Positions 3,964 through 32,294 of a stretch of 64,000 nucleotides of DNA are shown in pieces. Where the stretch lies: positions 3,331,001 to 3,395,000 of the forward strand of contig NZ_JACHMI010000001.1 of assembly GCF_014207985.1 (NCBI RefSeq). Direction: 5' to 3'. Within the stretch, counting starts at the first letter, position 1; each line of letters begins with the position of its first letter. The notes beneath the pieces were generated by a model, which did not search any database, was not told the DNA's origin, and worked only from the letters and a program-made list of their open reading frames with translations. The stretch is from Nonomuraea rubra. Its GTDB lineage: Bacteria > Actinomycetota > Actinomycetes > Streptosporangiales > Streptosporangiaceae. The position numbers and the translations under genes are program-made.

Positions 3964-3964
3964 C

Positions 3965-4873: not shown

Positions 4874-4894
4874 CCGGCTACCTCGGGTGACCGG
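4861..4894. repeat. 17-bp tandem duplication spanning a stop codon
   Basis: CTACCTCGGGTGACCGG occurs twice in direct succession (4861-4877, 4878-4894). The first copy holds the last codons and the TGA of the hydrolase; the second is a non-coding duplicate just before the convergent gene end at 4897. Confidence 0.9.
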
Positions 4895-4896
4895 CT

Positions 4897-6402: not shown

Positions 6403-6497
6403 GTGCGTTGGTTTGCCCGCTGATCTTCCAGCCTACTCCCAGCGTGTGGGACTGGAGATACCTCATTTGTCGGTGAGACCTGTTAGCTTCCTGCGAC

Positions 6498-11630: not shown

Positions 11631-11669
11631 CAGGCAGCACTACCGGATCCATCCCCTAAGGAGCCATCG

Positions 11670-12554
11670 ATGCGTGTCGTCGTCACCGGAGCCCACGGCA
11701 AGGTCGGCAGGGCGGCCGTCAGCGCCCTGCTCGCGGCGGGTCACGAGGTGACCGCCAGCGATCTGACGCGTCCGGTCTGGGAGCGGCGCGAGCCGGATCA
11801 GCCGCGTTACGTGCAGGCGGACCTGACGGACGTGGGTCAGGCGTTCGCCGTCGTACGTGAGGCCGAGGCGGTGGTGCACGCGGCGGCCATCCCCGATCCG
11901 ATGGCCAACGCCCCGCACGTGGTGTTCCAGAACAACCTGATGGCGACGTTCAACGTGCTGGAGGCGGCGGTACGGTTCGGGGTGTCGCGGTTCGTGAACA
12001 TCTCCAGCGAGACCGTCCCCGGGTTCTTCTTCGCCGAGCGGCCGTTCCTGCCCGACTACGCGCCGGTGGACGAGGAGCACCCGATCCGGCCGCAGGATCC
12101 GTACGCGCTGGCCAAGCACTTCGGTGAGCAGCTCATGGACGCGGCGGTGCGCCGCTCGGACCTGCGCTGCATCTCGCTGCGCCCGAGCTGGGTGCAGCAC
12201 GAGGGCAACTACGAGCGCAACCTCGGCCCGCAGGTGCGCGACAGCTCCGAGGCGGGCGCGGGGCTGTGGAGTTACATCGACGTGTACGACCTGGCGGACG
12301 CGATCGTGCTGGCCACCGAGTCCGATCTGCCCGGGCACGAGGTGTTCTACATCGCCTCGCCGGACAACGCGGGCGGGCACGACTTCGCCGCCATGCTGCG
12401 CCGCTACTTCGGCGACCGGATCGAGCTGCGGCCGCTGGCCCGTCCCGACGCCTCGGGCATCTCCTGCGCCAAGGCCCACCGGCTGCTGGGCTGGACGCCG
12501 AAGCGGTCGTGGCGCGACTACCTGGACGAGAACGGCCGTACCCGTCAAGGGTGA
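11670..12554 (+). CDS. NAD(P)-dependent sugar epimerase/dehydratase-like SDR
   Basis: 294 residues with the extended-SDR nucleotide motif GAHGKVGRAA at 7-16, the AAIPDPMANAP strand, NISSETVPG and the catalytic pair in DPYALAKHFGEQ (Tyr-x3-Lys). AAGGAG lies 8 bases before the ATG. The C-terminal lobe is that of NAD-dependent epimerase/dehydratases, but no sugar-pathway genes surround it. Its last 10 bases overlap the end of the convergent RibD-like gene. Confidence 0.87.
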   Translation: MRVVVTGAHGKVGRAAVSALLAAGHEVTASDLTRPVWERREPDQPRYVQADLTDVGQAFAVVREAEAVVHAAAIPDPMANAPHVVFQNNLMATFNVLEAAVRFGVSRFVNISSETVPGFFFAERPFLPDYAPVDEEHPIRPQDPYALAKHFGEQLMDAAVRRSDLRCISLRPSWVQHEGNYERNLGPQVRDSSEAGAGLWSYIDVYDLADAIVLATESDLPGHEVFYIASPDNAGGHDFAAMLRRYFGDRIELRPLARPDASGISCAKAHRLLGWTPKRSWRDYLDENGRTRQG

Positions 12555-13174
12555 TAGCGGAGCCAGACGAGGCCGTCGGGCAGGCTCTGCGCGGCGATGA
12601 GGGTGAGCGGTGCGGCGGCGGGGCGGTCGCCGTACCAGAAGCGGGTGGCGTGCTCGCCGGCCAGGCACGGGTGGACGAGCAGGCTGACCTCGTCCACCAG
12701 CCCGGCCCGCAGCAGCGCGCCGATGAGCCGGCCGCCGCTGTCGACCCGTACGACGCCGACCCCGTCGTCGCGGCCGAGCGTGCGCAGCGCCTCGGCGAGG
12801 TCGACCCGGTCGGTGCCCGTGACCAGCTCGCGCACCGGCCTGCCTGGCGGGCGCGGGGGAGTGGCGGGGCAGTGCAGGGCCACGACGTCGTGCCAGTGGC
12901 CGGCCGCGCGCAGCGCCTGCCACTCGCTGACCCGTCCGCGGCCGTCCACCACGGCCAGCAGCGGCCCGTCGGGGGCGGGGCCGGGGAGCTCGGCGCCGGC
13001 CAGCGCCTGCTCCTGGGCGAGGATGGTGTCGGCCCCCGCCAGGGTGAGGTCTTCCTTCCAGGTCTGGGCGAGCTGGTAGAAGCGGGTGACGTCCGGCTGG
13101 AATCCCGTGGTAGCTCCGTCGGCGGACACAGCGACGTGGGCCACCACGTAGGGACGTTGCGTACCTGTAGGCAT
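12545..13174 (-). CDS. RibD C-terminal/dihydrofolate reductase-like protein
   Basis: 209 residues resembling the reductase half of RibD: VVAHVAVSADGATTGF at the start, GADTILAQEQAL for the cofactor-binding helix, and GGRLIGALLRAGLVDEVSL near the end. Stand-alone members in actinobacteria are usually annotated as dihydrofolate reductase family proteins; the substrate is seldom known. No deaminase domain and no riboflavin genes nearby. It overlaps the SDR gene tail to tail by 10 bases. Confidence 0.85.
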   Translation of the reverse strand: MPTGTQRPYVVAHVAVSADGATTGFQPDVTRFYQLAQTWKEDLTLAGADTILAQEQALAGAELPGPAPDGPLLAVVDGRGRVSEWQALRAAGHWHDVVALHCPATPPRPPGRPVRELVTGTDRVDLAEALRTLGRDDGVGVVRVDSGGRLIGALLRAGLVDEVSLLVHPCLAGEHATRFWYGDRPAAAPLTLIAAQSLPDGLVWLRYHP

Positions 13175-13193
13175 GGCCTCACGCTAGTTGACG

Positions 13194-13244
13194 CAGCGGT
13201 CAGTCGAGGGCAGCGGTCAGTCGAGGGCAGCGGTCAGTCGAGGG
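13194..13244. repeat. 17-bp repeat, three perfect tandem copies, over a gene end
   Basis: CAGCGGTCAGTCGAGGG is present three times without interruption (13194-13210, 13211-13227, 13228-13244). The right-most copy contains the stop codon and last codons of the HAD gene on the minus strand. The other two are downstream duplicates, giving repeated TGA triplets. Confidence 0.93.
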
Positions 13245-13866
13245 CGGCGATCAGGTCGGGCAGCTTGGCGGGGTCGTGGAAGAGCGTCGCGCCCAGGCCG
13301 GTCAGCCGGGAGGCCGGGGTGAGGCCGCCGGCGAAGGCGAGGCAGCGCATGCCGGCGCGCATCGCCGCCGTGACGCCGAACGGGCTGTCCTCCACCACGA
13401 CGCAGCGTCCGGGCTCGGCGCCCATCGTGGCCGCGGCGTGCAGGAACAGGTCGGGCTCCGGCTTGCCCTTGGCGACGTCCTCGGCGCTGAACACCCGCCC
13501 GTCGAACCTGCCGGCCAGCCCGGTCAGCTCCAGGCTGCGCCGGATGGTCGGGTGCCGGCCGTTGGAGGCCACGCAGTAGGGGATGGACAGCTGGTCGAGC
13601 GCTGTCTCGATGCCGTCGATCGCGCACAGCTCGGCGGCGATCGCGGCGGCGTAGTCGGCGTTGACCTGCTCGCGCCAGCCCGGCGGGGTCTCGCCGACCT
13701 GCTCGGCCCAGTACTCGTTCGTGCAGCCCACGAACCGTTCGGCGTACTCGGCCTCGTCGATGTCCCAGCCGAGCCGCCGCAGCGCGGCGGTGCCCACGCG
13801 TACGGAGATCGGCTCGCTGTCCACGAGCACCCCGTCACAGTCGAAGATCACCAGCTCGACGGTCAA
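13234..13866 (-). CDS. HAD-superfamily hydrolase (beta-phosphoglucomutase-like)
   Basis: 210 residues with all HAD motifs: FDCDGVLVDSEP (nucleophile D9, acid/base D11), SNGR for motif II, KGKPEPD for motif III and VVEDSPFG for motif IV. A four-helix cap lies between motif I and II, as in phosphoglucomutase/phosphatase subfamily I proteins. The start is TTG at 13866 with AGGAGGG six bases upstream. The physiological phosphate ester is not evident. Divergent from the MFS gene; the region between carries an inverted repeat. Confidence 0.9.
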   Translation of the reverse strand: MTVELVIFDCDGVLVDSEPISVRVGTAALRRLGWDIDEAEYAERFVGCTNEYWAEQVGETPPGWREQVNADYAAAIAAELCAIDGIETALDQLSIPYCVASNGRHPTIRRSLELTGLAGRFDGRVFSAEDVAKGKPEPDLFLHAAATMGAEPGRCVVVEDSPFGVTAAMRAGMRCLAFAGGLTPASRLTGLGATLFHDPAKLPDLIAALD

Positions 13867-13910
13867 ACCGTGTCCCTCCTAGTGGGTGATGCGTAACATT
13901 GCGCAGGTGG

Positions 13911-13941
13911 TAGCGTCTGCGTATCGCTTCACAAGACGCTA
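13911..13941. promoter_or_regulatory. Inverted repeat between divergent genes
   Basis: TAGCGTCT (13911-13918) and AGACGCTA (13934-13941) are perfect 8-base arms separated by 15 bases, 22 bases before the MFS start and 45 bases from the HAD start. Position and symmetry suggest an operator for the divergent pair, or a 5'-leader hairpin of the MFS mRNA. Confidence 0.5.
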
Positions 13942-13963
13942 GTCCGCATAGTGAGACTGTTTC

Positions 13964-15250
13964 ATGACGACTTCCCCCCAGACCGCGGCCCCCAGCCGGT
14001 CCCGGGTCGCGGCGGCGAGCCTCATCGGCACCGCGATCGAATTCTATGATTTCTACATCTACGGCACCGCGGCGGCCCTGGTGCTCAACACCGCGTTCTT
14101 CCCCAAGATGGACTCGGTGGCGGGCACGCTGGCGTCGTTCTCGACGTTCGCCGTGGCGTTCATCTCGCGGCCGCTCGGCTCGGCCGTGTTCGGGCACTGG
14201 GGCGACCGCGTCGGCCGCAAGTCCATGCTGGTCGTCTCGCTGCTGGTGATGGGCCTGTCGACGGTCCTGATCGGCCTGCTGCCCGGCTACGCCGCGATCG
14301 GCGTGATCGCGCCCGTCCTGCTGGTGCTGCTGCGCTTCACGCAGGGCATCGGCCTCGGCGGCGAGTGGGGCGGCGCCGCGCTGCTGGCCACCGAGCACGC
14401 GCCGCCCGGCAAGCGCGGCCTGTACGCGATGTTCCCGCAGCTCGGCCCGTCGGCCGGGTTCATCGTGGCCAACGGGCTGTTCCTGATCCTCGGCGCCGTG
14501 CTGAGCGATGGGCAGTTCGAGAGCTGGGGCTGGCGGCTGCCGTTCGTGGCGAGCCTGCTGCTGGTCGTCGTCGGCCTGTACGTCCGGCTGAAGATCTCCG
14601 AGACCCCCGTCTTCCAGGCGGCCATGGACCAGCGCCGCATCGCCAAGGTGCCGTTCGCCGGGCTCATGCGGCACCAGTGGCGGCGTGTGCTGCTCGGCGC
14701 CGGCGCCATGACCGTCGCCTACACGCTCTTCTACACCGCCACCACCTACTGCCTGGCCTACGGCACCGACACCCTGCAGATCCCGCGGACGACCATGCTC
14801 GCGCTGACCATGGTCGGCGTGGTGTTCATGGCGGCGGGCACCGTCGTCTCGGCCCTGGTGTCCGACCGGCTGGGCCGCCGCCGGACGCTGCTCTGGGGCA
14901 CGGGCGTGGCGATCGCGTGGGGGCTGGTGATGTTCCCGCTGATGGAGACCCGCTCGATCTTCCTGGTCGGGCTGGCGCTGGCCGGGGCGCTCGCGCTGAT
15001 GGGCCTGGTGTTCGGGCCGATGGGGGCGTACCTGCCGGAGCTGTTCAAGACCGAGTACCGCTACAGCGGCGCGTCCGTCGCCTACAGCCTCGGCGGCGTG
15101 CTCGGCGGCGCGGTGCCGCCGCTGGTGGCGACCGGCATGCAGGCGGGCGGGCTGGGCGTCATGGCGATCGGCGGGTACGTCTCCGCGATGGCCCTGCTGA
15201 GCCTGCTGTGCCTGCTCGCCCTGCCGGAGACCGGCGACAGGTCCCTCTGA
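13964..15250 (+). CDS. MFS transporter, metabolite:H+ symporter (MHS) type
   Basis: 428 residues with twelve hydrophobic helices. The hallmark start IGTAIEFYDFYIYGTAAAL and the loop GHWGDRVGRKS near 76-86 are those of the MHS subfamily (proline/betaine, citrate, alpha-ketoglutarate and shikimate carriers). QGIGLGGEWGGAALL in helix 4-5 also fits. It imports a small organic acid or osmolyte by proton symport; the substrate cannot be assigned. The gene ends in a threefold repeated TCC-CTC-TGA. Confidence 0.92.
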   Translation: MTTSPQTAAPSRSRVAAASLIGTAIEFYDFYIYGTAAALVLNTAFFPKMDSVAGTLASFSTFAVAFISRPLGSAVFGHWGDRVGRKSMLVVSLLVMGLSTVLIGLLPGYAAIGVIAPVLLVLLRFTQGIGLGGEWGGAALLATEHAPPGKRGLYAMFPQLGPSAGFIVANGLFLILGAVLSDGQFESWGWRLPFVASLLLVVVGLYVRLKISETPVFQAAMDQRRIAKVPFAGLMRHQWRRVLLGAGAMTVAYTLFYTATTYCLAYGTDTLQIPRTTMLALTMVGVVFMAAGTVVSALVSDRLGRRRTLLWGTGVAIAWGLVMFPLMETRSIFLVGLALAGALALMGLVFGPMGAYLPELFKTEYRYSGASVAYSLGGVLGGAVPPLVATGMQAGGLGVMAIGGYVSAMALLSLLCLLALPETGDRSL

Positions 15251-15268
15251 TCCCTCTGATCCCTCTGA
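15242..15268. repeat. 9-bp tandem triplet over the MFS stop codon
   Basis: TCCCTCTGA is repeated three times (15242-15250, 15251-15259, 15260-15268). The first copy is the final two codons and stop of the MFS gene, so the duplications give two further in-frame stops. Confidence 0.9.
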
Positions 15269-15343
15269 GACTTCGCCGGAAGTTGTCACAAACGGCGGCC
15301 CTGTCCCGTCCATGGGGTGTAGAACCCGAAAGGAGACGGGGCA

Positions 15344-16771
15344 ATGAGGAAGCACATCCTGATCGTCGGTGGCGGATACGTCGGCCTGTACAGCGCGATG
15401 GGGCTGCGTAAGCTCGTCCGTTCCGGCGAGGCGAGCGTCACCGTCGTGGACCCGCGCGGCTACATGACGTACATGCCGTTCCTCGCCGAGGCCGTCGGCG
15501 GCTCGATCGAGCCGCGCCACGTGGCCGCCCCGCTCGGGCAGGTGCTCAAGGGCATGCGGGTGCTGACCGGGCGCGTCACGCGGGTGGACCACGAGGCGCG
15601 CAGCGCCGAGTTCCAGCCGGTCCAGGGCCCGGCCAGGACGATCGAGTACGACATCCTCGTCATGGCGGCCGGCTCGATCACCCGCGGGCTGCCCATCCCC
15701 GGGCTGGCCGAGCACGCGGTCGGCTTCAAGAGCATCGGCGAGGCCGTGCACCTGCGCAACCGCGTGCTGGCCAACCTCGCCGCCGCCGCCTCGACCGATG
15801 ACGAGCTGGTACGGCGCAGGGCGCTGACGTTCGTGGTGGTCGGAGGCGGGTTCTCCGGCGTGGAGGCGCTGGCGGAGATGCAGGGCCTGGCCGACGAGGC
15901 CGTGCGCTACCACGACGGGATCGAGGCCGCCGACCTGAGCTGGACTCTCGTCGAGGCCAACGACCACATCCTGCCCGAGCTGCACCCCGACCTCGGCCGC
16001 TGGACCGTGGACGCGCTGCGCAGGCGCGCCGTGGACGTGCGGCTCGGCACCCGGCTGACGTCGCTGGCCGGCGGGGTCGCCGTCCTCTCGGACGGGACCG
16101 AGCTCGACGCCGGCACGGTGGTGTGGGCGGCGGGCGGTCGGCCCAGCCCGCTCGCGGCGGCCAGCGGGCTGCCCGTGGACCGCATCGGGCGGCTCCTCGC
16201 GACCGAGTACCTGACGGTGGCGGGCGTCGAGGACGCCTTCACCGCCGGTGACGGCGCCGCCGTGCCCGACCTGACCCGGCCGGGCGAGTTCACCGCGCCC
16301 AACGCCCAGCACGCGGTCCGGCAGGCCAAGCTGCTCGGGCGGAACCTGGTCGCGTACGTGCGCGGGCGGCGGCTCAAGCCGTACCGGCACGCCTACCTGG
16401 GCTCGGTCGCCGGGCTCGGTCACCACCAGGGGGTCGCCCAGGTGTACCGGATCAAGCTCACCGGCCTTCTCGGGTGGCTCGCGCATCGCGCCTACCACCT
16501 GGGGTGGGTGCCGACGGCCCGGCACAAGGCGGCGGTGCTGGCCGACTGGCTGCTGGCGGGGCTGTTCCGGCGTGAGATGGTGCGGCTGGAGGCCATCGAG
16601 CACGCGGATGAGGACTTCCGGCACGCGCTGGCGGTCGGCCAGACGGACGGGACCGGCGTCCCGGCCGCGACCCCCGAGCCGGCCGCCGGCCGGCCCGTCC
16701 GGGACGTGTCGGCTGCCGGGGAGGCCGGTTCGGTGGCCGGTACGGATGCCCGTCAGGCGCCGGCCGCGTGA
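15344..16771 (+). CDS. NAD(P)/FAD-dependent oxidoreductase, type II NADH dehydrogenase-like
   Basis: 475 residues with two dinucleotide-binding motifs, VGGGYVGLYSA (8-18) for FAD and VVGGGFSGVEALAEM for NAD(P)H. TVVWAAGGRPSPLA and AFTAGDGAAVPD are the usual third and fourth FAD motifs. Layout and length match NDH-2 or carotenoid-type membrane-associated dehydrogenases, which pass electrons from NADH to menaquinone. AAGGAG precedes the ATG. The last 70 residues are Ala/Pro-rich and probably disordered. Confidence 0.88.
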   Translation: MRKHILIVGGGYVGLYSAMGLRKLVRSGEASVTVVDPRGYMTYMPFLAEAVGGSIEPRHVAAPLGQVLKGMRVLTGRVTRVDHEARSAEFQPVQGPARTIEYDILVMAAGSITRGLPIPGLAEHAVGFKSIGEAVHLRNRVLANLAAAASTDDELVRRRALTFVVVGGGFSGVEALAEMQGLADEAVRYHDGIEAADLSWTLVEANDHILPELHPDLGRWTVDALRRRAVDVRLGTRLTSLAGGVAVLSDGTELDAGTVVWAAGGRPSPLAAASGLPVDRIGRLLATEYLTVAGVEDAFTAGDGAAVPDLTRPGEFTAPNAQHAVRQAKLLGRNLVAYVRGRRLKPYRHAYLGSVAGLGHHQGVAQVYRIKLTGLLGWLAHRAYHLGWVPTARHKAAVLADWLLAGLFRREMVRLEAIEHADEDFRHALAVGQTDGTGVPAATPEPAAGRPVRDVSAAGEAGSVAGTDARQAPAA

Positions 16772-19460: not shown

Positions 19461-22400
19461 TCAGGCGAGGGCGGGCGTGCCCCGGTCCACGTACGCGGCC
19501 AGGGCGCGGACCCGTTCCGCGTGCTGGTCGTGCCCGACGATCACCGGCGGCTCGTTGTACGGCATCGCGTCCGACGACCGCCGCAGCTTGATGTACTGCC
19601 CGCAGGCATCGATCGCGTACGGCTCCATGTCGTCCTGCAACGCCCCGATCACCGTGATCCCGTACGTCTCCCCGATCCTCCTGAACAGCGCCACGGCCTC
19701 CCGCCGATGCTCCTTGCCCAGGTTGCGCCCCAGCTCGTCGAGCACGAGGCACAGATGGCCGCCGCCGGACGACGCGATGGCCGCCGCGCACACCAGCTTG
19801 ACGGCCTTCTCGTCCATCAGCGCCGTGTTGGCCCGCCGGTTGTACGGCACGAACCCCTGCCCCTCGCCCCGCCGCCACTTCGGCGTCACCCGCCACTGCC
19901 AGCGCTGCTCGGGATCGGCCGGCGCGGGCGGCACCGGGAACTCCAGGGTCGCGCCGTAACCGCCGTAGGAGGTGTCGAGCTTGTCGAACTCCTCGGCCAC
20001 CCGCGCCAGCCGCGCCTTGATCGCCGCCGTCAGCGCCGCCCGGTGCACGGCCGTGGACTGGGCCGCCTCCTCGGCACCCCTGGCCGCCGCCGCCAGGTCC
20101 CGCTGACGGGAGACGAGCTGCGCCTCGATCTGCCGCCGCTGGTGCCGTTCGTACTCCTCCTGCCCCCGCAGGTACGACGCCAGCGCCCCGCACACCGCCG
20201 GGAACGTCGCCTGCTCCCGCGCCGTGCTGCCCTCCCGCTCGTTCAGCAGGAACCGCAGCTCCTCCGGGATCTCCGCCTCGTCCTCCGACGGGAACGTGTC
20301 GCGCAACGCCTGGTCGAGATGGCGTTCGGCGACCCGCCACCACTCCTCGGCGGCCCGGGGCCGCTCCTCCTCGGGCAGCGCCTCCAGCCATTCGCGGGCG
20401 GTCTCGATCGTGCCGCCCCAGTCGGCGGCCAGCGCGCCGAGCTTGAGCGACTCCCGCTCCGCCCCGACTCTCGTCTCCTGCTCGCGGGCCTGCGCCCGCT
20501 CGGACTCGTGCCGGTGCCTGCGGCCCTCCAGCCGCTCGATCTCCATGTCCCTGGTACGCGCCCGGAAGTCCAGCGTGCCCGCCTGCCTCTCGGCCTCGGC
20601 GACCTTCGGAGTCAGCTCCTCGATGGCCGCGTTCAGCTCGCCCAGCCTGGCCCGCCGCTCGCCGAGCTTGGCCTCGATCTCGGCCAGCCGCACCCCGGCC
20701 CTGGCCCCCTCCAGCCGCCGCTGCGCCTGCGCGACGGCCTCCTCCCCGTCGTGCACGGCCTGCGCCGCGCTCTCCTGAACGTCCTTGGCCCGGTTGAGCC
20801 GCTGCTCGGCGGCCTTGATCCGGGCCTCCCGCCCGGTCGCCACCCCGTCGAACGCTCCCACGACGCTCACCCCGGCCGCACTGACCAGCACGGATCCGGG
20901 CAGCTCCGCCAGCGCGGCGGCGGCCTCGTCGAGCCGGGCGGCGTCCACGATCACGGCATGCTCGTTCGGCCACCCCCGCAACTCACCCAGCGCAAGCCCG
21001 GCCCCGGCACCCGCCGCCCCGGCGCCGGGCGCGCCAGCGGACGCCGCTTCGGAGGCCGCGCCGGTCGCCTTGCCGTAGCGCGCCTTGAGCGCCTCACCCA
21101 GCGCCTGCCCGCCGCCCGTGTCAGAACCGCCGGCGCCCGTAAGAGAGCTGGGCAAGGCGGGCGGGGGTGTGTGGGCGGCGTCGCGGGCCTGTTCCGCCAC
21201 GTCCAGAGCGTCCAGCAGGCCGGTGGCCCCGATGCCGGCCGCGGCGAGCGCGTTGAGCTGGGCCGCCGCCGGGCCGCCCTCGGCGTCGTCCAGCGCGGCC
21301 TGTGCCGAGGCCACCTCCTGGTCGGCCACGCCCAGGGCCTTGAGTGCCTCGTTGAGCCGCAGCCGTACCTCACCCAGCTCCCGCTCGGCCGCGGGAACGT
21401 CCCGCCCGTCGGCGAACCGCCGGGTCTCCTCCAGGCCCGGGATCAGCCCGCGCAGCTCGTCGGCGGAGTTCTCCGCCACGGCGCGGTCGGCGTCGAGCTT
21501 GGCCGCCCGCGCCTGCAGGGCCGACAGCTCCTTGCGGGCCTGCGAGACCTGCCGGTCGAGGGTGTCCTCGCGCAGCGTGGCGATCTCCGCCTTGACCATG
21601 GCGATCGCCTCGCCCGCCGCCTCGCCGGCGGCGCGGTGCCGTTCGAGGTCGGCGGCCAGGGCCTCGTCCTTGGCCGCGGCGTCGGCCAGCTTGCGCGCCT
21701 GCCGCCCGCGCCAGCAGCGCAGCGCGTCGGCCAGCCGGATGCGCGCCTGGTCCCGCCGGTCGAACGTGGTCAGCAGCGCCTTCGACTCCGACTCGAACTC
21801 GGCCAGCCGCTCGGCCGCCTGCGCCGCCCGCACCCGCTTGGCGTGCTCGTCGCGGCGGGCCTCGCGCTCCTGCTCCAGCTCGGCGTCCAGGCCGGTGAGC
21901 GCGGCGATGGCCTCGAAGACGCGCTCGGGGGAGATCTCGTTGAGCGGCTGGGAGAGCAGGTTGGTGGCGACCTTGCTGCGCACGGACGTGGACAGGAACG
22001 ACACGCACCTGACCTTGTCGCCGTACAGCACCTTGGTCAGGTCGCGGGCCACGACGTCGCGCCGCCCGGCCGACTTCGGCAGCGACGCCCAGATCTCGTC
22101 GGCCCGCGCCACCCGCTCGGCCTCGGACGGGGACGCCGCCAGGTGCACGCCCTCCCGCCACCGGATCTCCAGGTGCGGCGCCTCCTGGTTGACCTTCAGC
22201 CACACGGTCAGCGCCCCGCCCGAGGTGTCGGGCACCTCGAACAGCTCCCCGCCACCGCCATCGGCCTCCCCGAGCACGAGCTCGGCCCCGCCACCGTCAC
22301 CGGCGACCACCGGCCCGTCACCGGAGCCCGTCCCACCGGCCACACCGCCGCCACCCTCCGCACGGCCCAGCGCCGCGCCTGTGCCGTCGGCCGCTGCCCC

Positions 22401-22826
22401 GCCGCCGATGGAGGACGAGGCCGGGCCATCGGTGCCGCCCGGCGGAGGGACGGGGTCGAAGCCGTTCATGCCGGGCGGCCCGAAGACCCCCACGATGTAG
22501 CCGTGATCGGCGCTGGCCCACTGCCGGGCCCCGGCGCCGCTGGCCAGCTCCGCGTTGAACAGCAGCTCCGACACCGCCTTGGCGCCCGAGGCGAAGCGCC
22601 ACTGCTCGTCACCGAGCAGCGCGGTGATCGAGGCGATGAACGAGGACTTGCCCGCCCCGTTGGAGTCCTTGGGCCCAGCGCCCGCCACGACGATGAGCGT
22701 GCCGGGGACGGTGGGCACGGGATGGGTCGACAACCGTGAGATGTTGACCGCCTGCATGGCGATCAGCACCCGGTCCCCGACGACGTTCTCCACCTGCGAC
22801 ACCTCGAACCCCCGTAACCCTTCCAT
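19461..22826 (-). CDS. SMC/MukB/JetC-like coiled-coil ATPase of a three-gene complex
   Basis: 1121 residues with SMC architecture. Walker A DSNGAGKSS (54-62) has Asp in place of the first Gly. A Gly-rich insert (about 121-195) follows. Coiled-coil arm one spans about 315-520. A central globular, hinge-like region spans about 525-665 and is flanked by another Gly/Ala run. Arm two spans about 665-790 plus 895-950. Walker B LCLVLDELG has D1030/E1031. The segment NTALMDEKAVKLVCAAAIA before Walker B stands where an LSGGQ or LSTGE signature is expected, so that motif is degenerate. Last gene of the operon, 17 bases after the middle gene. Size and order match MukB or Wadjet JetC. Not SbcC (no zinc hook), not canonical Smc. 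Confidence 0.72.
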   Translation of the reverse strand: MEGLRGFEVSQVENVVGDRVLIAMQAVNISRLSTHPVPTVPGTLIVVAGAGPKDSNGAGKSSFIASITALLGDEQWRFASGAKAVSELLFNAELASGAGARQWASADHGYIVGVFGPPGMNGFDPVPPPGGTDGPASSSIGGGAAADGTGAALGRAEGGGGVAGGTGSGDGPVVAGDGGGAELVLGEADGGGGELFEVPDTSGGALTVWLKVNQEAPHLEIRWREGVHLAASPSEAERVARADEIWASLPKSAGRRDVVARDLTKVLYGDKVRCVSFLSTSVRSKVATNLLSQPLNEISPERVFEAIAALTGLDAELEQEREARRDEHAKRVRAAQAAERLAEFESESKALLTTFDRRDQARIRLADALRCWRGRQARKLADAAAKDEALAADLERHRAAGEAAGEAIAMVKAEIATLREDTLDRQVSQARKELSALQARAAKLDADRAVAENSADELRGLIPGLEETRRFADGRDVPAAERELGEVRLRLNEALKALGVADQEVASAQAALDDAEGGPAAAQLNALAAAGIGATGLLDALDVAEQARDAAHTPPPALPSSLTGAGGSDTGGGQALGEALKARYGKATGAASEAASAGAPGAGAAGAGAGLALGELRGWPNEHAVIVDAARLDEAAAALAELPGSVLVSAAGVSVVGAFDGVATGREARIKAAEQRLNRAKDVQESAAQAVHDGEEAVAQAQRRLEGARAGVRLAEIEAKLGERRARLGELNAAIEELTPKVAEAERQAGTLDFRARTRDMEIERLEGRRHRHESERAQAREQETRVGAERESLKLGALAADWGGTIETAREWLEALPEEERPRAAEEWWRVAERHLDQALRDTFPSEDEAEIPEELRFLLNEREGSTAREQATFPAVCGALASYLRGQEEYERHQRRQIEAQLVSRQRDLAAAARGAEEAAQSTAVHRAALTAAIKARLARVAEEFDKLDTSYGGYGATLEFPVPPAPADPEQRWQWRVTPKWRRGEGQGFVPYNRRANTALMDEKAVKLVCAAAIASSGGGHLCLVLDELGRNLGKEHRREAVALFRRIGETYGITVIGALQDDMEPYAIDACGQYIKLRRSSDAMPYNEPPVIVGHDQHAERVRALAAYVDRGTPALA

Positions 22827-22843
22827 CCATCACAGAAACGCTC

Positions 22844-24304
22844 TTACTTGGCGGATCTACGCGCCAGCACGGCCGTGGCGAGCGGGGTGTTCGGCCCGGC
22901 CGCCAGGATCAGCTCCTCCTGCAGCCGCCGCCGCGCCGCCGCCGTCAGCCGGTGGAACTGCGGCCCCGGCACGTAACCGCCCGCCTCCTCACCCGCCTTC
23001 ACCTGGCCGAGCAGCCCCGCGTGCCGCAACGTCCGCAACGCCGACTCCAGCTCGCCGATCGGGAGCTGGGTGTGGCGGCGCAGCTCCTCGACCGGCGTCG
23101 GGTGCGGCGACAGCCACGAGTCCTCCGGCAGCAGCCCCTCGGCCCGCGGGATGGCCACGGAGTGCACCAGCACGAGCGTCAGCACGGCCCGCTCGCTCAC
23201 CCCGAGCGGCCCGCGCGCCGCCCCGAGCGGCCCGCGCGCGGCCCCAGGCGGACCGCCGGCATCGTGCGCACCGAGGCCGGCGGCGTGGAGGGCGCCGACG
23301 GTGGCGGCCACGCCGTCGTCGTAGCCGGAGATCCAGCGGTCGCGATGCTGGATCAGCGTACGGCCGCGCCTGGCCAGCATCTCGCCCAGCGTGCGGCGCA
23401 GCGCCGGGTCGCGCAGGGCGGCGAAGCGCACCTCCTGCACCGGCTCGGCGGCATGCTCCACCACCATGAACGCCGCCACCAGCTCGGCCCGCCGCCGCTC
23501 GTCGTAACCACCCAGCAGATCGTCGAACTCGGCCGCCCCACCCTCGACCCGCCCGGCCCCCGCCTCGACTTCAGCACCCGCAAACGCCTCGGTCCTCGCT
23601 TCGACTTCAGCACCCGCAAAGACCTCGGCCCCCGCTTCGACCTCGGCACCCGCAAAGACCTCGGCCTCCGCGACGGCCTCACTCCCCGCAAGCGGCTCGG
23701 CTACCTCGACGGCAGGGCCGCTGGGACGCGAGCTCTCCGCCCCCGCCCGCGCGGCCGCGACGATGTCGGCATCACCCACCACGGTCAGCTCGGGCCGCTC
23801 GGGTTCGGGCAGCCGCCGCACCAGCTCCTGCAGCTGCGCGTGCGCCTCCACCGGCCACAACGCACACCTCGGCCCGAGCAGCACCACCCCGTCGTCCATC
23901 ACCACCCAGGCGGAGTCGTGCAGCCGCCGCAGCGCCCCCCGCGCCCAGTTGCGCATCAGGTCGTCGGTGCGCCCGATCAGCTCCCGGTACGTGTCGAGCA
24001 CCAGCTCCACCGGCGCGGGATCGCCCGGCCACGGATCCACGGACAGATCGGTCCAGCAGCACTTGAGCACCGCCGCCAGCACCCGCCGCGTCTCGCCGGA
24101 CCGCTCCACGGGCACGGGCGCCACCTGGTGCTCGTCCAGCAGCGACGGCGTCACCCCGTCGGGCCACACGGGCAGGGCGTCGCCGGTGGAGTCGGGCCTG
24201 GTCAGCCGGATCATGCCGGGGGCGGCGAGAACCCCGGCGCCCAGCCGGACGGGCCCGTGGGCCCGCACCAGCGCATGGGAGACAGCCGCTTGCCGCTGAT
24301 CCAT
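22844..24304 (-). CDS. Putative MukE/JetB-like partner of the SMC-type ATPase
   Basis: 486 residues. The start ATG at 24304 shares its A with the TGA of the upstream gene (TGATG), so translation is coupled. The N-terminal half (about 1-180) is mixed alpha/beta with PWPGDPAPVELVLDTYRELI. The middle (about 195-255) is an acidic low-complexity stretch of AGAEVEAG-type repeats. The C-terminal half is helical with PVEELRRHTQLPIGELESAL, resembling a winged helix. I do not recognise a family from sequence alone. Position between the kleisin-like and SMC-like genes is the main reason for a MukE/JetB (KITE) role. It may be a helper that joins the ATPase to the kleisin. Confidence 0.55.
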   Translation of the reverse strand: MDQRQAAVSHALVRAHGPVRLGAGVLAAPGMIRLTRPDSTGDALPVWPDGVTPSLLDEHQVAPVPVERSGETRRVLAAVLKCCWTDLSVDPWPGDPAPVELVLDTYRELIGRTDDLMRNWARGALRRLHDSAWVVMDDGVVLLGPRCALWPVEAHAQLQELVRRLPEPERPELTVVGDADIVAAARAGAESSRPSGPAVEVAEPLAGSEAVAEAEVFAGAEVEAGAEVFAGAEVEARTEAFAGAEVEAGAGRVEGGAAEFDDLLGGYDERRRAELVAAFMVVEHAAEPVQEVRFAALRDPALRRTLGEMLARRGRTLIQHRDRWISGYDDGVAATVGALHAAGLGAHDAGGPPGAARGPLGAARGPLGVSERAVLTLVLVHSVAIPRAEGLLPEDSWLSPHPTPVEELRRHTQLPIGELESALRTLRHAGLLGQVKAGEEAGGYVPGPQFHRLTAAARRRLQEELILAAGPNTPLATAVLARRSAK

Positions 24305-25500
24305 CAGACACGCTCCAGGTAGCCGTGCGAGAGCCAGGCGGGCTCGCGGTCGGGATCGACGGTCAGCCCGTCGGCCCAGGCGAGCCGGTAGGGCAGCTCG
24401 GGCCGCAGGTCCACGGTCGTCAGGTCGGCCAGCATGCGCCGCGCCGCGACCCAGTCGGAGCCGAGCACGTCGGCCAGCGCCACCCGCGAGGACTCTCCCA
24501 GCAGCGACTCGGCCATCTGCGTGAGCCGTTCGAGCGCGGCGCCCGGCGAGGTGTCGAGCGAGGACTCGGGGCCGGGGTCGGGCAGCGTGGAGCGCGGGGG
24601 AGTGGGCTGGGCGGGGGCCGGGCGCGGGGCCTCGTCGACGGCCCTGGCGATGGCGGCGGGATCGTGCCAGGGCGCGGGCGCGTCGAAGAGGAACCCGTCG
24701 AGCACGGCCGCCAGCCGCTCCCTGGGCGCCGTCTGCGCGAATGTGCGCCACGTCTCGGTCGGCAGCAGCGTCAGGTTGCGCGTGGTGCCCGCCGAGTCGG
24801 CCAGGCGGCCCGCGGCGCGGCGCGAGGCGTCGCTGTAGGCGTAGATGGCGGCCCGCAGGTCGGTGCAGACCCGGTCGAGCTCCGGCCAGCGGGTCAGGAT
24901 CGTGCCGTGCAGGCTCTGCGCCCGCCGCGCGATCTCCTCGGTGCCCCACAGCTTGGGCGCCTGCTCGCGCAGCTCCTCGATGGTGCCGGTGGTGAGCGTG
25001 ATCAGCTCCAGCGCCCACAGCCGGAACGCCCGCGCCAGATTGAGCGCGCTCTGCCTGGCCTCCTCCATCGTGGTGCGCGGGTCGGCGACGTTGAGGTCTT
25101 CGAGCGCCAGCAGGCGGTGCATCTCGGACTGGCCGCCGTCGTCCATCATCCGCCTGATGAACATCAGCCCCACCACGCTGGTGAACGAGGCGCGGTAGCG
25201 GAGCTGGTTGGGCTTGGGGAACACCTCGCGGATGGCGCCGAGCCCCTTGAGCACGCGCAGCCGGTTGTCGAACTGGTCGGTGGGGTAGGCGCGGCAGGCG
25301 AAGCGCATCTGCTCGTGCGTCAGCCATTCCTCGCCCGCCTCCGCGAACGCCGCGAACAGCGTCTCGGCGATGTCGACCAGGGCCGGATCGTCGACCACCG
25401 CCCCGCTGTCGCGGGCCAGCGCGGCGAACATGCGGCGGTAGGTCGACAGGACCGCCTCGTCGGTGAGGACGGAGTCGAGGGTCAGGGGCTGTTCGGACAC
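24304..25500 (-). CDS. Putative kleisin (MukF/JetA-like), first gene of the SMC operon
   Basis: About 398 residues from GTG at 25500 (MSEQPLTLDSVLTDEAVL); another GTG at 25539 would add 13. It is almost entirely helical: a winged-helix-like N-terminal domain (THEQMRFACRAYPTDQFDNR, then LKGLGAIREVF and a beta wing LRYRASFT), a long helical bundle (about 110-240), a Pro-rich linker near 300-330, and a second compact C-terminal domain. Winged helix, middle bundle, linker and C-terminal domain is the MukF/JetA plan. No sequence motif proves it. Divergent from the FN3 gene at 25655, with about 150 bases between them holding the promoters. Confidence 0.55.
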   Translation of the reverse strand: MSEQPLTLDSVLTDEAVLSTYRRMFAALARDSGAVVDDPALVDIAETLFAAFAEAGEEWLTHEQMRFACRAYPTDQFDNRLRVLKGLGAIREVFPKPNQLRYRASFTSVVGLMFIRRMMDDGGQSEMHRLLALEDLNVADPRTTMEEARQSALNLARAFRLWALELITLTTGTIEELREQAPKLWGTEEIARRAQSLHGTILTRWPELDRVCTDLRAAIYAYSDASRRAAGRLADSAGTTRNLTLLPTETWRTFAQTAPRERLAAVLDGFLFDAPAPWHDPAAIARAVDEAPRPAPAQPTPPRSTLPDPGPESSLDTSPGAALERLTQMAESLLGESSRVALADVLGSDWVAARRMLADLTTVDLRPELPYRLAWADGLTVDPDREPAWLSHGYLERV

Positions 25501-28794: not shown

Positions 28795-30033
28795 GTGCGG
28801 CCCCCACCAACCCCCGGGCCCACCCCCGCGCACCCACCGCCGGCCCCGCCCGCCCCGCCGACCGCCGTGCACCCAGCGCAGGCGCCGCGTACCCCGCCGA
28901 CCGGCGCGCAGCCGCCGGCGTCGGCGCTGCGCGGTCGGCTGGCCGGCGTGCTTACGCCGCTGGGCTGGGGGACGCTGGCAGGGGCCGTGGTGCTGTACGC
29001 CGCCGGGTTCGCGCTCGGTTATCCCGAGCCTGTCGTGCTGGCCACGGGTGCGGTGCTCGCGCTGGCCGGGGCGCTGGCGTGGACCGCTCCGAAGCCGCTG
29101 CTGGAGGTGCGCAGGGAGGTCACCCCGCTCAAGGTGCCGCGCGGCGAGGCCGCCGTGGCCGTCCTGACCGTGACCAACCTCGGCCGCCGCGGCCTGTCCG
29201 GACTGCGCGCCCAGGACCGGATCGGCGCGTCGGAGCACACGGTCGACCTGCCGAGGCTGCCCAAGGGGGCGGTGCGCACGGTGTCGTACCCGCTGCCGAC
29301 GGACACGCGAGGTGAGATCCCGGTCGGGCCGCTCGTGCTCGTGCGCGCCGACCCGTTCGGGCTGACGCGCCGGCTGCGCGAGTACGGCCGCCCCGTCACC
29401 CTCCTGGTACGCCCGCGCACGGTCGCCCTGCCTGTCCCGCCGTCCGGCAAGGCCCACCACCTGGAGGGGCCGGCCAGTGACAACGCGCCCGCGGGCACGG
29501 TCACCTTCCACACCCTGCGCGAGTACGTCCTGGGCGACGACCTGCGCCACGTGCACTGGCGTTCCAGCGCCCGCACGGGCACCCTGATGGTCCGGCAGTT
29601 CATCGACGCCAGCCTGCCCACCACGACGGTCCTGCTCGACACGCGGGGCCTGACGGAGCCGGCCGTGGACGCCGCCGCCTCGGCCGCCGTCGCCGCCGCC
29701 CGGGCCGGGTTCCCCGTACGCGTCGTCACCGGCGACGGGCCGCTGCCCGACACGAAGACGGACGCCGAGACCGTCCTGGACCGGCTCGCGCTGGTCCGCC
29801 CCGGCACGTCCGGCGTCACCGAGGCCCTGCGAACGGCCCGGGGCGGCGGGTCCCTGGTCCTGGTGACAGCGGACCCGTCGGAGGCCGGGCGGATCGCGGG
29901 AGCCCGGCGCCGCTTCGACCGCGTCATCTGCGTGTACGTGGGCCCCGGCCCCGCCCCGGCGGGCCCGCCCGGGGTGACGGTCGTGCCGATCACGTCCCTG
30001 GACGAGCTGCCCGCGGCCTGGAGCTCCCGATGA
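28795..30033 (+). CDS. DUF58 domain protein
   Basis: 412 residues. A Pro/Ala-rich cytoplasmic head (1-45) is followed by two hydrophobic helices (about 55-95), a beta-rich domain, and the DUF58 core LGDDLRHVHWRSSARTGTLM. That core precedes a VWA-like alpha/beta region with TTTVLLDTRG. The GTG start lies one base past the MoxR stop, and the end overlaps the next gene by ATGA, so three products are coupled. DUF58 proteins co-occur with MoxR; the complex is thought to act in envelope processes, but a biochemical role is unproven. Confidence 0.88.
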   Translation: MRPPPTPGPTPAHPPPAPPAPPTAVHPAQAPRTPPTGAQPPASALRGRLAGVLTPLGWGTLAGAVVLYAAGFALGYPEPVVLATGAVLALAGALAWTAPKPLLEVRREVTPLKVPRGEAAVAVLTVTNLGRRGLSGLRAQDRIGASEHTVDLPRLPKGAVRTVSYPLPTDTRGEIPVGPLVLVRADPFGLTRRLREYGRPVTLLVRPRTVALPVPPSGKAHHLEGPASDNAPAGTVTFHTLREYVLGDDLRHVHWRSSARTGTLMVRQFIDASLPTTTVLLDTRGLTEPAVDAAASAAVAAARAGFPVRVVTGDGPLPDTKTDAETVLDRLALVRPGTSGVTEALRTARGGGSLVLVTADPSEAGRIAGARRRFDRVICVYVGPGPAPAGPPGVTVVPITSLDELPAAWSSR

Positions 30034-32294
30034 CCAGGGGCACGCGGCGCATCCCCCGACCGGTCCCGCAGGGAGACGGCCACCACGACGCCGCCCACCA
30101 CGACGCCGCCCACCACGACGCCGCCCACCACGACGCCGCCCACCACGACGCCGCCCACCACGACGCCGCCCACCACGACGCCGCCCGGAGCGAGGCCGCT
30201 CCGGGCAGCGCCGCCCGGTACGGGGCGGCCCGGCGCGGGGCCGTGCAGGGTGGGCCGTGGTGGCGGTGGGCGGCCGGGCTTGCCGTTGTCGCGGCGCTGG
30301 CCGGGGTGGCGGGATGGGGTTTTCACCGGGTGTTCCCCGGCACCGGGCTGCTCCTGGCCGTCGTGCCCGCCGCCGTCGCCCCCGCGGCCGTCGCCGCGCT
30401 GACCCGCACCCGCCCCCTCTGGCTGGCCCTGGCGCTGGACCTGGTCCTCTGGCTGGCCGGCACCATCCCCCTGTACGGAACGCTGTCCGCCACCGCCCCC
30501 GCCGACGTCGCCAACGCCTGGCACGCCCTGCTCACCACCCTGCTGCCCGCCCAGCCGGAGCCGGAGCTGCTGGTCCTCGTCCACACCCTGGTCTGGGCGG
30601 CGGCCACCATCGGCGCGGAGACCCTGACCCGCACCGCCACGAGGATCGCCGCCGCGCTCCCCGCCCTGGCCGTCTACGGGGTGGCGCTGCTGCTGGGCGT
30701 GGACGGCGAGGGCTCGAACCTGCCGGTGGCGGCGGCCCTGTTCGTGCTGATGGCCACGCTGGCCCTGATCCGCGACGGCCGCTCCCCGGCCTGGCTGCTG
30801 GGCGGGATCCCGGCCGCCGCCGCGCTGGCCGGGCTCGCGCTGGTGGCGGCCCCGCTGCTGCCCATCGCCGCGGAGCCGTACAACCCGCGCCAGGACGCCG
30901 ACCTCCCCCCTCCCGCCCGCGTGGACAGCGTCAGCCCTCTGGACCGGGTCTCGGCGTGGTTGCAGATCCCCGACCGCGAGCTGTTCACCGTCGAGGCAGG
31001 CAAGCCGCAGAACTGGCGCCTGGCCGTGCTCGACCGGTACGACGGCGTCCGCTGGACCTCCGGCGCCCGCTTCCGGCCCACCGGAGGCCGGGTTCCCGAG
31101 GGCGAGTGGACGGGCGCCGCGGACGTGGTGCGCCAGCGCATCACGTTCGGCGGCCTGCCCGGCACCTGGCTGCCCGCCGCCGAACGCCCCGAGCAGGTCA
31201 CCGGCGTGCGCGGCCTGACCGTGGACCCCGCCAGCGGGTCGCTGCTGGCCGGCACCAAGCCGGCCAAGGGGTTCAGCTACGAGGTGACCTCCCGCGTGCC
31301 CCGGCCCACCAAGCAGGACCTCCTGGCCGCCGCCCCCGCCCGCGACGCGAGCCTGACCGCCTTCCCCGACGGGCCCCAGGAGCGGCTCTTCCGCAGGCTC
31401 GCCCAGCAGGCGGTCAAGGGCGCCGGCGAGCCGATCCGGCAGGCGTACCGGCTGCAGAGCTACCTGCGCACGAACGCCGCCTACGACGTCACCGCGCCCC
31501 CCGGACACTCGCTCAAGGGCCTGGAGTTCTTCCTGCAGACCACGCACCGGGGGACGTCGGAGCAGTTCGCGGCCACGTTCGCGCTCATGGCCAGGACGCT
31601 CGGGCTGCCGTCGCGGGTGGTCGTCGGGTTCAGGCCGGGCGAGAAGTCCGGCGGCGTCTATCACGTCAAGTCCGGACACGTCATGGCGTGGGCGGAGATC
31701 AGGTTCGAAGGGCTGGGGTGGCGGCCGTTCTATCCGACACCGGGGCGCAGCGGGGCCAAGGACGACCACGAGGTGGCCTCCTCGGCGATCGAGGAGAGCG
31801 AGAAGCTGGAGGGCGAGCTCGCCAAGGGCGGCAGCGACCGGCCGAAGACGTCCGAATCGCAGGCGGCCGACCGGGACGAGCGGGCGGCGGGCGGGCCTGA
31901 CCCGTGGCTGGTCGCGGCGGTGGCGGCGGGCGGGCTGCTGGCGGCGTACGGGGGTGTGGTGGCCGTCGTGCCGTGGCGGCGCAGGCACGGGCGCCGCAGC
32001 GCGAGGGAGCCCGCGCAGCGGGTGCTGGGGGCGTGGCGGCAGGCGTGCGACGATCTGGGGCTCGGCAGGGAGTACGCGCTGACGGCGGGCGACGTGGTGT
32101 CCCGCCAGCCTGGCGAGATTTCCGTACATCTCCATCCGTTGGCCGAAATTTCCAACTTCGTGCGGTACGCCCCGGACGGCGTCACCGACGCCGCCGCCAC
32201 CGAGGCCTGGCACCACAGCGACGCCATCCGCAAAGCCGCCCGCACCCGCAAGCCCCTCCTGACCCGCCTCCGCGCCCGCCTCCTCCTGCGATGA
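30030..32294 (+). CDS. TgpA-type transglutaminase-fold membrane protein, probable pseudoenzyme
   Basis: 754 residues. The N-terminal cytoplasmic head carries seven HHDAA repeats (18-52). Five or six membrane helices follow (about 76-290), then a transglutaminase-like domain (about 420-575), a further helix (about 630) and a charged tail. In active members the nucleophile motif is C-E-Q-F-A. Here it is TSEQFAATFALM with Ser510. The His of the HAW motif aligns with Met552 (HVMAWAEI), and the Asp position is Tyr568 (FYPTP). All three catalytic residues appear replaced, so a structural or binding role is more likely. Overlaps the DUF58 gene by four bases. Confidence 0.85.
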   Translation: MTRGTRRIPRPVPQGDGHHDAAHHDAAHHDAAHHDAAHHDAAHHDAAHHDAARSEAAPGSAARYGAARRGAVQGGPWWRWAAGLAVVAALAGVAGWGFHRVFPGTGLLLAVVPAAVAPAAVAALTRTRPLWLALALDLVLWLAGTIPLYGTLSATAPADVANAWHALLTTLLPAQPEPELLVLVHTLVWAAATIGAETLTRTATRIAAALPALAVYGVALLLGVDGEGSNLPVAAALFVLMATLALIRDGRSPAWLLGGIPAAAALAGLALVAAPLLPIAAEPYNPRQDADLPPPARVDSVSPLDRVSAWLQIPDRELFTVEAGKPQNWRLAVLDRYDGVRWTSGARFRPTGGRVPEGEWTGAADVVRQRITFGGLPGTWLPAAERPEQVTGVRGLTVDPASGSLLAGTKPAKGFSYEVTSRVPRPTKQDLLAAAPARDASLTAFPDGPQERLFRRLAQQAVKGAGEPIRQAYRLQSYLRTNAAYDVTAPPGHSLKGLEFFLQTTHRGTSEQFAATFALMARTLGLPSRVVVGFRPGEKSGGVYHVKSGHVMAWAEIRFEGLGWRPFYPTPGRSGAKDDHEVASSAIEESEKLEGELAKGGSDRPKTSESQAADRDERAAGGPDPWLVAAVAAGGLLAAYGGVVAVVPWRRRHGRRSAREPAQRVLGAWRQACDDLGLGREYALTAGDVVSRQPGEISVHLHPLAEISNFVRYAPDGVTDAAATEAWHHSDAIRKAARTRKPLLTRLRARLLLR
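30081..30185 (+). repeat. 15-bp in-frame repeat, seven copies, encoding HHDAA
   Basis: CACCACGACGCCGCC is repeated seven times without a mismatch inside the transglutaminase-fold gene. It gives 14 histidines and 7 aspartates in 35 residues at the cytoplasmic N-terminus. Perfect identity suggests recent slippage expansion, and copy number is likely to vary between strains. Confidence 0.95.

Follow-up and report, generated by a model that had tools for sequence, protein, structure and literature searches.

The occurrence in Nonomuraea rubra of three coupled genes resembling those of an SMC complex, with no nuclease gene beside them, raises the question of whether they specify a chromosome organiser of the MksBEF type, a plasmid-defence system relying on a nuclease encoded elsewhere, or a distinct family, these being the three options left by a first-pass annotation of the window (i.e. 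the entire 64,000-nucleotide stretch of DNA that was analysed). The open reading frames of the window bear out the gene order given in that annotation. A kleisin-like gene (gene 1; 24304..25500, 398 aa, GTG start), a fused winged-helix gene of putative KITE type (gene 2; 22844..24304, 486 aa) and an SMC-like ATPase gene (gene 3; 19461..22826, 1121 aa from the called start, with a more internal one possible) follow one another on the minus strand, on which all parts of these genes described below also lie. Gene 2 overlaps the stop codon of gene 1 by the one base that both share in the junction TGATG, and 17 bp separate genes 2 and 3. The ATPase gene is directly adjoined, as had been annotated, by a convergent citrate synthase gene (stops at 19461 and 19451, respectively, with 9 bp between them) and not by a nuclease gene; the locus thus displays the kleisin-KITE-SMC order without nuclease of MukBEF/MksBEF-type operons. 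This order is kept in 84 loci, the window included. The kleisin, both parts of the winged-helix subunit (2a and 2b) and the ATPase are all present in 96 of 110 loci, the remaining 14 being short or ending at contig ends, and several loci represent one genome fetched twice.

The profile searches called for in the annotation left the products of genes 1 and 2 without a name from any PADLOC, Pfam or NCBIfam model, and a sequence search of the PDB with the window proteins returned no SMC, kleisin or KITE relative. The AlphaFold model of the gene 1 product (pLDDT 69, pTM 0.38) consists of an N-terminal winged helix, a helical bundle, a Pro-rich linker and a C-terminal winged helix. Chains of JetABC or MukE-MukF entries, identified as JetA or MukF by their length, occupy Foldseek ranks 2, 3, 6, 7, 9 and 13; the JetA/MukF matches have TM-scores of 0.11-0.25, and no Foldseek match reaches an E-value of 0.001. 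Furthermore, MukF/MukBEF entries take VIA ranks 1-3, with unrelated winged-helix proteins scoring nearly as well. These model comparisons weakly favour a MukF/JetA-like fold. Against MukF and JetA2, hhalign gave probabilities under 4% (single-sequence templates) and no profile-profile match was obtained.

Gene 2 is a fusion, since its two halves are encoded separately in Actinomadura and Jiangella as well as in a distant relative from another class (locus L140). In the model of its product (pLDDT 75, pTM 0.64), half 2a (residues 1-200; 23705..24304) contains one winged helix and half 2b (residues 256-486; 22847..23539) contains two in tandem, and the halves are joined by a low-complexity linker with AGAEVEA-type repeats and a pLDDT under 50 (residues 204-249; 23558..23695). 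The best Foldseek match of half 2b is ScpB (E 0.047), so that a ScpB-like fold is weakly favoured for it, and in VIA unrelated winged-helix proteins outscore the SMC-complex matches of gene 2. Comparison of gene 2 with MukE and JetB2 by hhalign yielded probabilities under 4% (single-sequence templates) and no profile-profile match, and comparison of 2a with 2b by the same program yielded no sign of homology. Smc5/6 is described in one account as carrying an Nse1-Nse3 KITE pair (PMC10512200). If 2a is a KITE protein, the present complex would similarly contain two different KITE-type proteins; unlike Smc5/6, the family is bacterial and fused in one branch, and its 2a part has a single predicted winged helix.

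The Walker A motif of the ATPase (GPKDSNGAGKSS, 22641..22676) lies near residue 55 and the Walker B and D-loop region (LVLDELGRNLGK, 19713..19748) near residue 1029 of 1121, i.e. at opposite ends of the protein, and both are kept in all 76 selected full-length orthologues. Composition and alignment place an approximate hinge region at residues 520-690 (20757..21269), between two charged, Pro/Gly-poor stretches. The composition fits an arm-hinge-arm layout; the heptad test was not significant in most windows of the protein, and nor was the short alignment with the MukB hinge. At the ABC signature position (19803..19823) the protein reads ALMDEKA in place of LSGGE(K)A, in a register taken from an hhalign alignment with JetC2 of the same genome that is itself not significant. 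MDEKAVKLV occupies this position in 76/76 orthologues, [LQ]MDEKA is invariant, and an LSGGE-like form of the LSGGQ/LSGGE signature of SMC and ABC-type heads was found in 0/76; the protein is named SMC-like because of this non-canonical motif. With the signature lost, ATP hydrolysis could be altered or abolished. Among PADLOC families the ATPase matched only mad8 (9.6e-4) and LmuB (0.83), and no JetC.

The neighbourhood survey for a JetD-like gene proposed in the annotation proved fruitful in one place. In L140, the kleisin (E 1e-36), 2a (2.9e-16), 2b (1.1e-47) and SMC (2.6e-161) parts are separate genes followed, 12 bp downstream, by a JetD-like DUF2399 gene (7.3e-9, 36 bits against a cut-off of 23.4), and the ATPase arm has weak JetC2 and JetC3 matches (3.1e-5 and 1.2e-4). 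This link comprises one intact locus, a second (L141) being a decayed remnant. To our knowledge, JetD-type genes otherwise accompany JetABC/MksBEF, and the placement of the L140 nuclease gene is therefore hard to credit to chance. Two JetD proteins used as tblastn queries had no match in the other gene-set loci, and among eight genes behind the ATPase scanned with Pfam that of L140 alone was nuclease-like. A hidden extra gene beside the ATPase was also sought in six other loci; five have an alpha/beta hydrolase, a CoA-binding protein, an ABC transporter, a kinase or a ThrE exporter there, and the sixth has a 1114-aa protein without a Pfam match. This JetD-like gene, the fusion of gene 2 and the altered signature are all additions to what the annotation had reported.

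Of the three options, it is that of a distinct family that stands, and we consider it probable that the three genes represent a KITE-type SMC-like family that is related to Wadjet and lies outside present profile libraries, with an actinomycete branch that is free of a nuclease and acts on the host chromosome. With Wadjet (JetABCD) and MksBEFG it shares the order kleisin, KITE, SMC and, in L140, the terminal JetD-like gene, and it may share a JetA/MukF-like fold of the kleisin. It differs from Wadjet in that the window proteins match no JetA, JetB or JetC profile in PADLOC, in having two winged-helix parts against one JetB, in the non-canonical signature, in being core rather than patchy in Nonomuraea, and in lacking JetD in the operons of the actinomycete branch.

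The ATPase was found in 53 of 54 Nonomuraea genomes, including 41/41 of good quality (the exception is 63% complete), and in 12/12 Jiangella genomes. In a class sample of 394 genomes, its profile (E 1e-30) detected 28 genomes, every one of which was also among the 29 detected with that of the kleisin (E 1e-5); the remaining genome (G017) has a kleisin fragment. The gene set is therefore more than a chance grouping, and an ATPase occurring without its partners, which the annotation had named as evidence against one complex, was not seen in these 28 genomes, all of which have the kleisin. The ATPase tree broadly follows taxonomy. Nonomuraea and Jiangella carry the gene set as part of their core genome, many related genera also have it, and inheritance in these groups is mainly vertical. 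The complex is absent from at least 20 genomes belonging to the same GTDB-type family. Beyond this family and that of Jiangella, the G017 fragment is all that the class sample contains; proteins of the family exist in Amycolatopsis, Saccharothrix, Kribbella and Kineosporia. Outside those two families the distribution looks patchy, as that of defence genes is.

This patchiness is one of the observations suggesting that the complex may still serve defence, sensing foreign DNA by loop extrusion and passing it to a host nuclease elsewhere, e.g. SbcCD. SbcDC is encoded in the same window (6498-11630), SbcC or SbcD genes occur in the fetched flanks of 24/77 ATPase loci, and the operon of L140 ends with a JetD-like gene. 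However, the proximity of SbcCD may reflect common ancestry of the region, the other loci scanned have nothing nuclease-like behind the ATPase, and the ATPase is core in the genus, unlike DUF2399, the nuclease domain of Wadjet, which is found in 32 of the same 54 Nonomuraea genomes. Plasmid defence by means of a DUF2399-type JetD in trans, one form of the annotation's option of a nuclease encoded elsewhere, is unsupported, since 20 of the 41 good-quality Nonomuraea genomes are without a DUF2399 match (21 have one) and all 41 carry the ATPase. Whole-genome searches of N. rubra with DUF2399 and JetD_C matched a single place, a separate type II Wadjet operon (L108) 1.4 Mb away, where the JetD_C match does not reach its cut-off; therefore, no such nuclease gene lies within the window. 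The type II Wadjet paralogues of this genome do match Jet models in PADLOC.

Searches for a mobile origin gave it no support: the sole match in a plasmid collection is a chromosome-sized Nonomuraea record of 11.85 Mb, the kleisin had no match in a phage search, and no relative was found among viral contigs. Additionally, the genes are under purifying selection, with median dN/dS values of 0.145, 0.218 and 0.169 for genes 1 to 3 across 10-11 chosen Nonomuraea loci (whole-gene values no lower than those of some neighbour genes), and it is strongest in the C-terminal head of the ATPase (0.047-0.073, four comparisons). On this evidence a defence role is unlikely.

Another reading considered was that the family is a MukBEF/MksBEF condensin that has diverged and never had a Wadjet past, the nuclease gene of L140 having been gained there. 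The family shares with MukBEF of E. coli the gene order, the lack of a nuclease gene and a likely chromosomal role, and it may share the kleisin fold (MukF being the top VIA match of the kleisin); the absence of Jet profile matches in the window proteins agrees with this. The only significant similarity by hhalign, however, is in the Walker A motif (70% across 21 columns); the alignment of the Walker B region with MukB, 31% across 51 columns, is not significant. MukE is one 234-aa protein, leaving 2a as an extra part, MukB keeps LSTGE, and ScpA is also present in this genome. No MukB, MukE or MukF family of Pfam or NCBIfam matches the window proteins, and no profile supports the MksBEF membership that had been suggested. 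The DUF2399 gene directly behind the L140 ATPase and the weak JetC2/JetC3 matches in its arm also argue against such a history, and we regard it as quite improbable. As for Smc-ScpAB, half 2b may be ScpB-like in its fold; in contrast, the ScpA of this genome is encoded elsewhere, the kleisin of the window appears MukF/JetA-like, and the ATPase match to SMC_prok_B (E 3.6e-9, residues 630-944) scores 34.9 bits, far under the cut-off of 567. A decaying Wadjet relic that has lost its nuclease and ABC signature and is otherwise drifting, as the decayed copies G017 and L141 and a few Nonomuraea ATPase matches in pieces might suggest (two adjacent pieces in G403, G418 and G437, two contigs in G396 and G435, partial in G404), is largely refuted and very improbable, given a single full-length match in 47 of the 54 Nonomuraea genomes, the constraint on the C-terminal head and the invariance of the altered motif itself.

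In the distinct, Wadjet-related family that we favour, the kleisin encoded by gene 1 would be of the MukF/JetA kind, gene 2 would provide a KITE-type subunit of two fused parts, and gene 3 an SMC-like ATPase. Two ATPases would dimerise at the hinge, and the kleisin would close the dimer into a ring and carry the 2a-2b pair; ATP-driven head engagement, employing the unusual signature motif, could then entrap or extrude chromosomal DNA without cutting it. Its ancestry would be shared with a Wadjet-like five-gene system bearing a JetD-type nuclease, as in L140, the nuclease having most likely been lost in the actinomycete branch. The complex may be redundant, because ScpA is present in the genome. 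More tentatively, this may be a new class of bacterial SMC complex in which two unlike KITE proteins form an obligate pair (2a and 2b, joined into one chain on a single occasion) and the ABC signature of the ATPase has been rewritten. Such a class would derive from a five-gene Wadjet-like plasmid-cutting system, its actinomycete branch having discarded the nuclease and taken on the role of a core chromosome organiser.

One review raises, as a speculation, a past in defence for both MukBEF and MksBEF (PMC10586767). Since the present family offers both a nuclease-bearing state (L140) and a nuclease-free one (Nonomuraea, Actinomadura and Jiangella), this idea becomes testable, and the family may show how a bacterial defence machine becomes, or arises from, a chromosome housekeeper. 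If this is true, the switch from defence to housekeeping proposed for MukBEF would have an extant example, and bacteria would have a two-part KITE with an SMC-like motor that lacks the textbook signature motif. The complex occurs in almost all of the Nonomuraea genomes examined and appears not to have been named before, and a keyword search of the open-licence literature found no description of this SMC-like family. It is hidden by annotation, since the ATPase is mostly labelled 'chromosome partitioning protein ParA' among the 120 of 651 matches listed and the kleisin stands in public records as 'hypothetical protein' or, in a few cases, under DUF2397, DUF2398 or TIGR02678.

The coupled minus-strand trio claimed by the first-pass annotation was present as described. 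Gene 1 (kleisin-like, 25500-24304) overlaps gene 2 (winged-helix, KITE-type, with halves 2a and 2b, 24304-22844) by one base, gene 3 (SMC-like ATPase, 22826-19461) follows after a 17-bp gap, and a convergent citrate synthase gene lies 9 bp beyond the end of gene 3. The complex is assigned to a distinct KITE-type SMC-like family, one of three options that the annotation had offered; its MksBEF-like option was dropped, as no sequence match was found. The complex was not assigned to MukBEF/MksBEF as a whole on the same result, nor the ATPase to canonical ABC ATPases, given its signature motif. Assignment to Wadjet was likewise not made, with no JetA, JetB or JetC profile match and no JetD in the operon. 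The complex probably works like Wadjet, MukBEF/MksBEF and ABC ATPases.

No LSGGE-like motif was found in any of the 76 full-length ATPase orthologues (picked by script as >880 aa and without a stop), all of which carry GPKDSNGAGKSS, CVSFLSTSVR, NTAxMDEKAVKLV, LDELGRNLGK and GALQDDME. The two JetC2 paralogues of the window genome retain LSGGEKA and LSTGERR, whereas the ATPase described here has no such motif; a statistically non-significant hhalign alignment of this ATPase with JetC2, with Walker B in register, placed ALMDEKA opposite ALSGGEKA. The ATPase of L140, a distant relative from another class, lacks both LSGGE and the exact motifs of the 76 while keeping GPKGDSNESGKTS and LILDELG, and the loss of LSGGE is thus old within the family. 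A Pfam SbcC_Walker_B search of the window genome matched five places, gene 3 not among them.

The phylum sample (396 genomes) yielded three matches, window genome included, the other two belonging to one family in another class. The first, L140 (contig G583:C186, 10,351 bp), carries kleisin, 2a, 2b and ATPase genes followed, 12 bp past the ATPase, by a 461-aa ORF matching DUF2399, the domain of the Wadjet nuclease JetD (E 7.3e-9, 36 bits, cut-off 23.4). This ORF gave weak PADLOC matches to JetD1/JetD2 (best 1.7e-6) and no match in NCBIfam; it retains VVEN as well as PDADAGG, a stretch of the DxDxxG type. By eye, these match VVEN and GDLDTDG in JetD of L108, a type II Wadjet operon of the window genome, and they are taken to be the Toprim acidic residues. 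The second, L141 (G573:C82), is a broken remnant with kleisin, 2b and N-terminal ATPase pieces in three frames, and a decayed copy of the gene set was also observed in another genome (L119, G017:C65). The association with a JetD-like gene is represented by one intact example (L140), and the rooting of the two-branch tree is compatible with nuclease loss or gain alike; loss is preferred because JetD-type genes accompany JetABC in known Wadjet types.

In Actinomadura, Jiangella and Haloactinopolyspora, 2a and 2b are separate genes between kleisin and ATPase, mostly overlapping or with few bases between them. Based on stop-to-stop frames, gene 2 was fused in 79, split in 22 and cut off in nine of 110 loci, some of which are the same genome fetched twice. 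In a tree of 77 ATPase sequences with L140 as the root, split halves occur in Jiangellaceae and in the Actinomadura group; the members with a fused gene 2 together make up a single clade of 65 (support 0.997). One fusion event would be the simplest history, which suggests that both halves are required together. 2a, a single winged helix in the predicted model, may be a second KITE; hhalign found no similarity between 2a and 2b. The tree broadly follows taxonomy, with some low supports; as exceptions, Planobispora and Planomonospora are mixed, two species stand apart from their own genera and Thermoactinospora falls inside Nonomuraea.

In the class sample (394 genomes), 28 genomes matched the ATPase profile. 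The kleisin profile matched 29, the additional match being a fragment. The ATPase genomes are divided equally between the window's own family (14, with at least 20 further sampled genomes lacking the ATPase) and the Jiangella family (14). The ATPase was found in 12/12 Jiangella and 53/54 Nonomuraea genomes (41/41 of good quality; the single miss is 63% complete). It is one full-length match in 47 Nonomuraea genomes, five with an internal stop counted, which in the one case compared (G315 versus L025) is the terminal stop; elsewhere it lies in two adjacent pieces (G403, G418, G437), across two contigs (G396, G435) or is partial (G404). DUF2399 was matched in 32/54 of the same genomes and 21/41 of those of good quality, and therefore 20 good-quality genomes have the ATPase without a DUF2399 match. 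The family is patchy beyond its two core families, since kleisin homologues are recorded under Amycolatopsis, Saccharothrix, Saccharopolyspora, Kribbella and Kineosporia. Kleisin P0318, from a Nonomuraea sp. TT08I-71 record, is 60% identical to the Jiangella type, suggesting a transferred second copy. Among the named public records listed (P0123-P0242), the ATPase is mostly labelled 'chromosome partitioning protein ParA' and in a few cases 'FtsZ-binding cell division protein ZapB', both misleading annotations. The kleisin search of phages gave no match and viral contigs no relative; the sole match in the plasmid collection was a Nonomuraea gerenzanensis record of 11.85 Mb, plainly chromosome-sized.

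Against 10-11 chosen Nonomuraea loci, median dN/dS was 0.145, 0.218 and 0.169 for genes 1, 2 and 3, respectively, inside the range of six neighbours (0.145-0.394), with 0.047-0.073 for ATPase residues 935-1121 (four loci). The gene set belongs to the core of two genera, sits on the chromosome and is under constraint, a profile that fits chromosome maintenance better than defence. With MukBEF and JetABC as models (PMC10586767, PMC10512200), the kleisin would connect one ATPase at its neck with a second at its cap and carry the KITE pair on its middle part. Two complexes may be paired through the N-terminal winged helix of the kleisin, and DNA would be captured through ATP-driven head engagement; without a nuclease, the outcome would be DNA holding or loop extrusion. 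ScpA, the part of Smc-ScpAB searched for, also occurs in the 12.9 Mb window genome, and the complex would thus act alongside Smc-ScpAB; as related genera lack the gene set, it is not indispensable.

The window genome also encodes a complete type II JetA2-JetB2-JetC2-JetD2 operon (L108, G000:C1 1941000-1959000, at 5097-14204). A second type II JetA-JetB-JetC set (L110, G000:C1 7648000-7666000, at 8468-15443; DUF2397, DUF2398, TIGR02680) is followed by ABC transporter genes with no adjoining JetD, and is another nuclease-free JetABC, distinct from the present locus. An SbcD-SbcC pair lies 8 kb away at window positions 6498-11630, a second SbcDC-like pair (31-36% identity) was observed at 3778-7511 of locus L109, and SbcC or SbcD occurs within the fetched flanks of 24/77 ATPase loci. 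In two Actinomadura loci, the ATPase gene is followed, on the same strand, by one for a protein of >1,100 aa (L083, 14719-18096; L085, 14620-17964); the L085 protein (1114 aa) has no match in Pfam. Finally, a 754-aa ORF at window positions 30030-32294, with approximately seven HHDAA repeats at its start, was judged by eye to encode a putative transglutaminase-like membrane protein.
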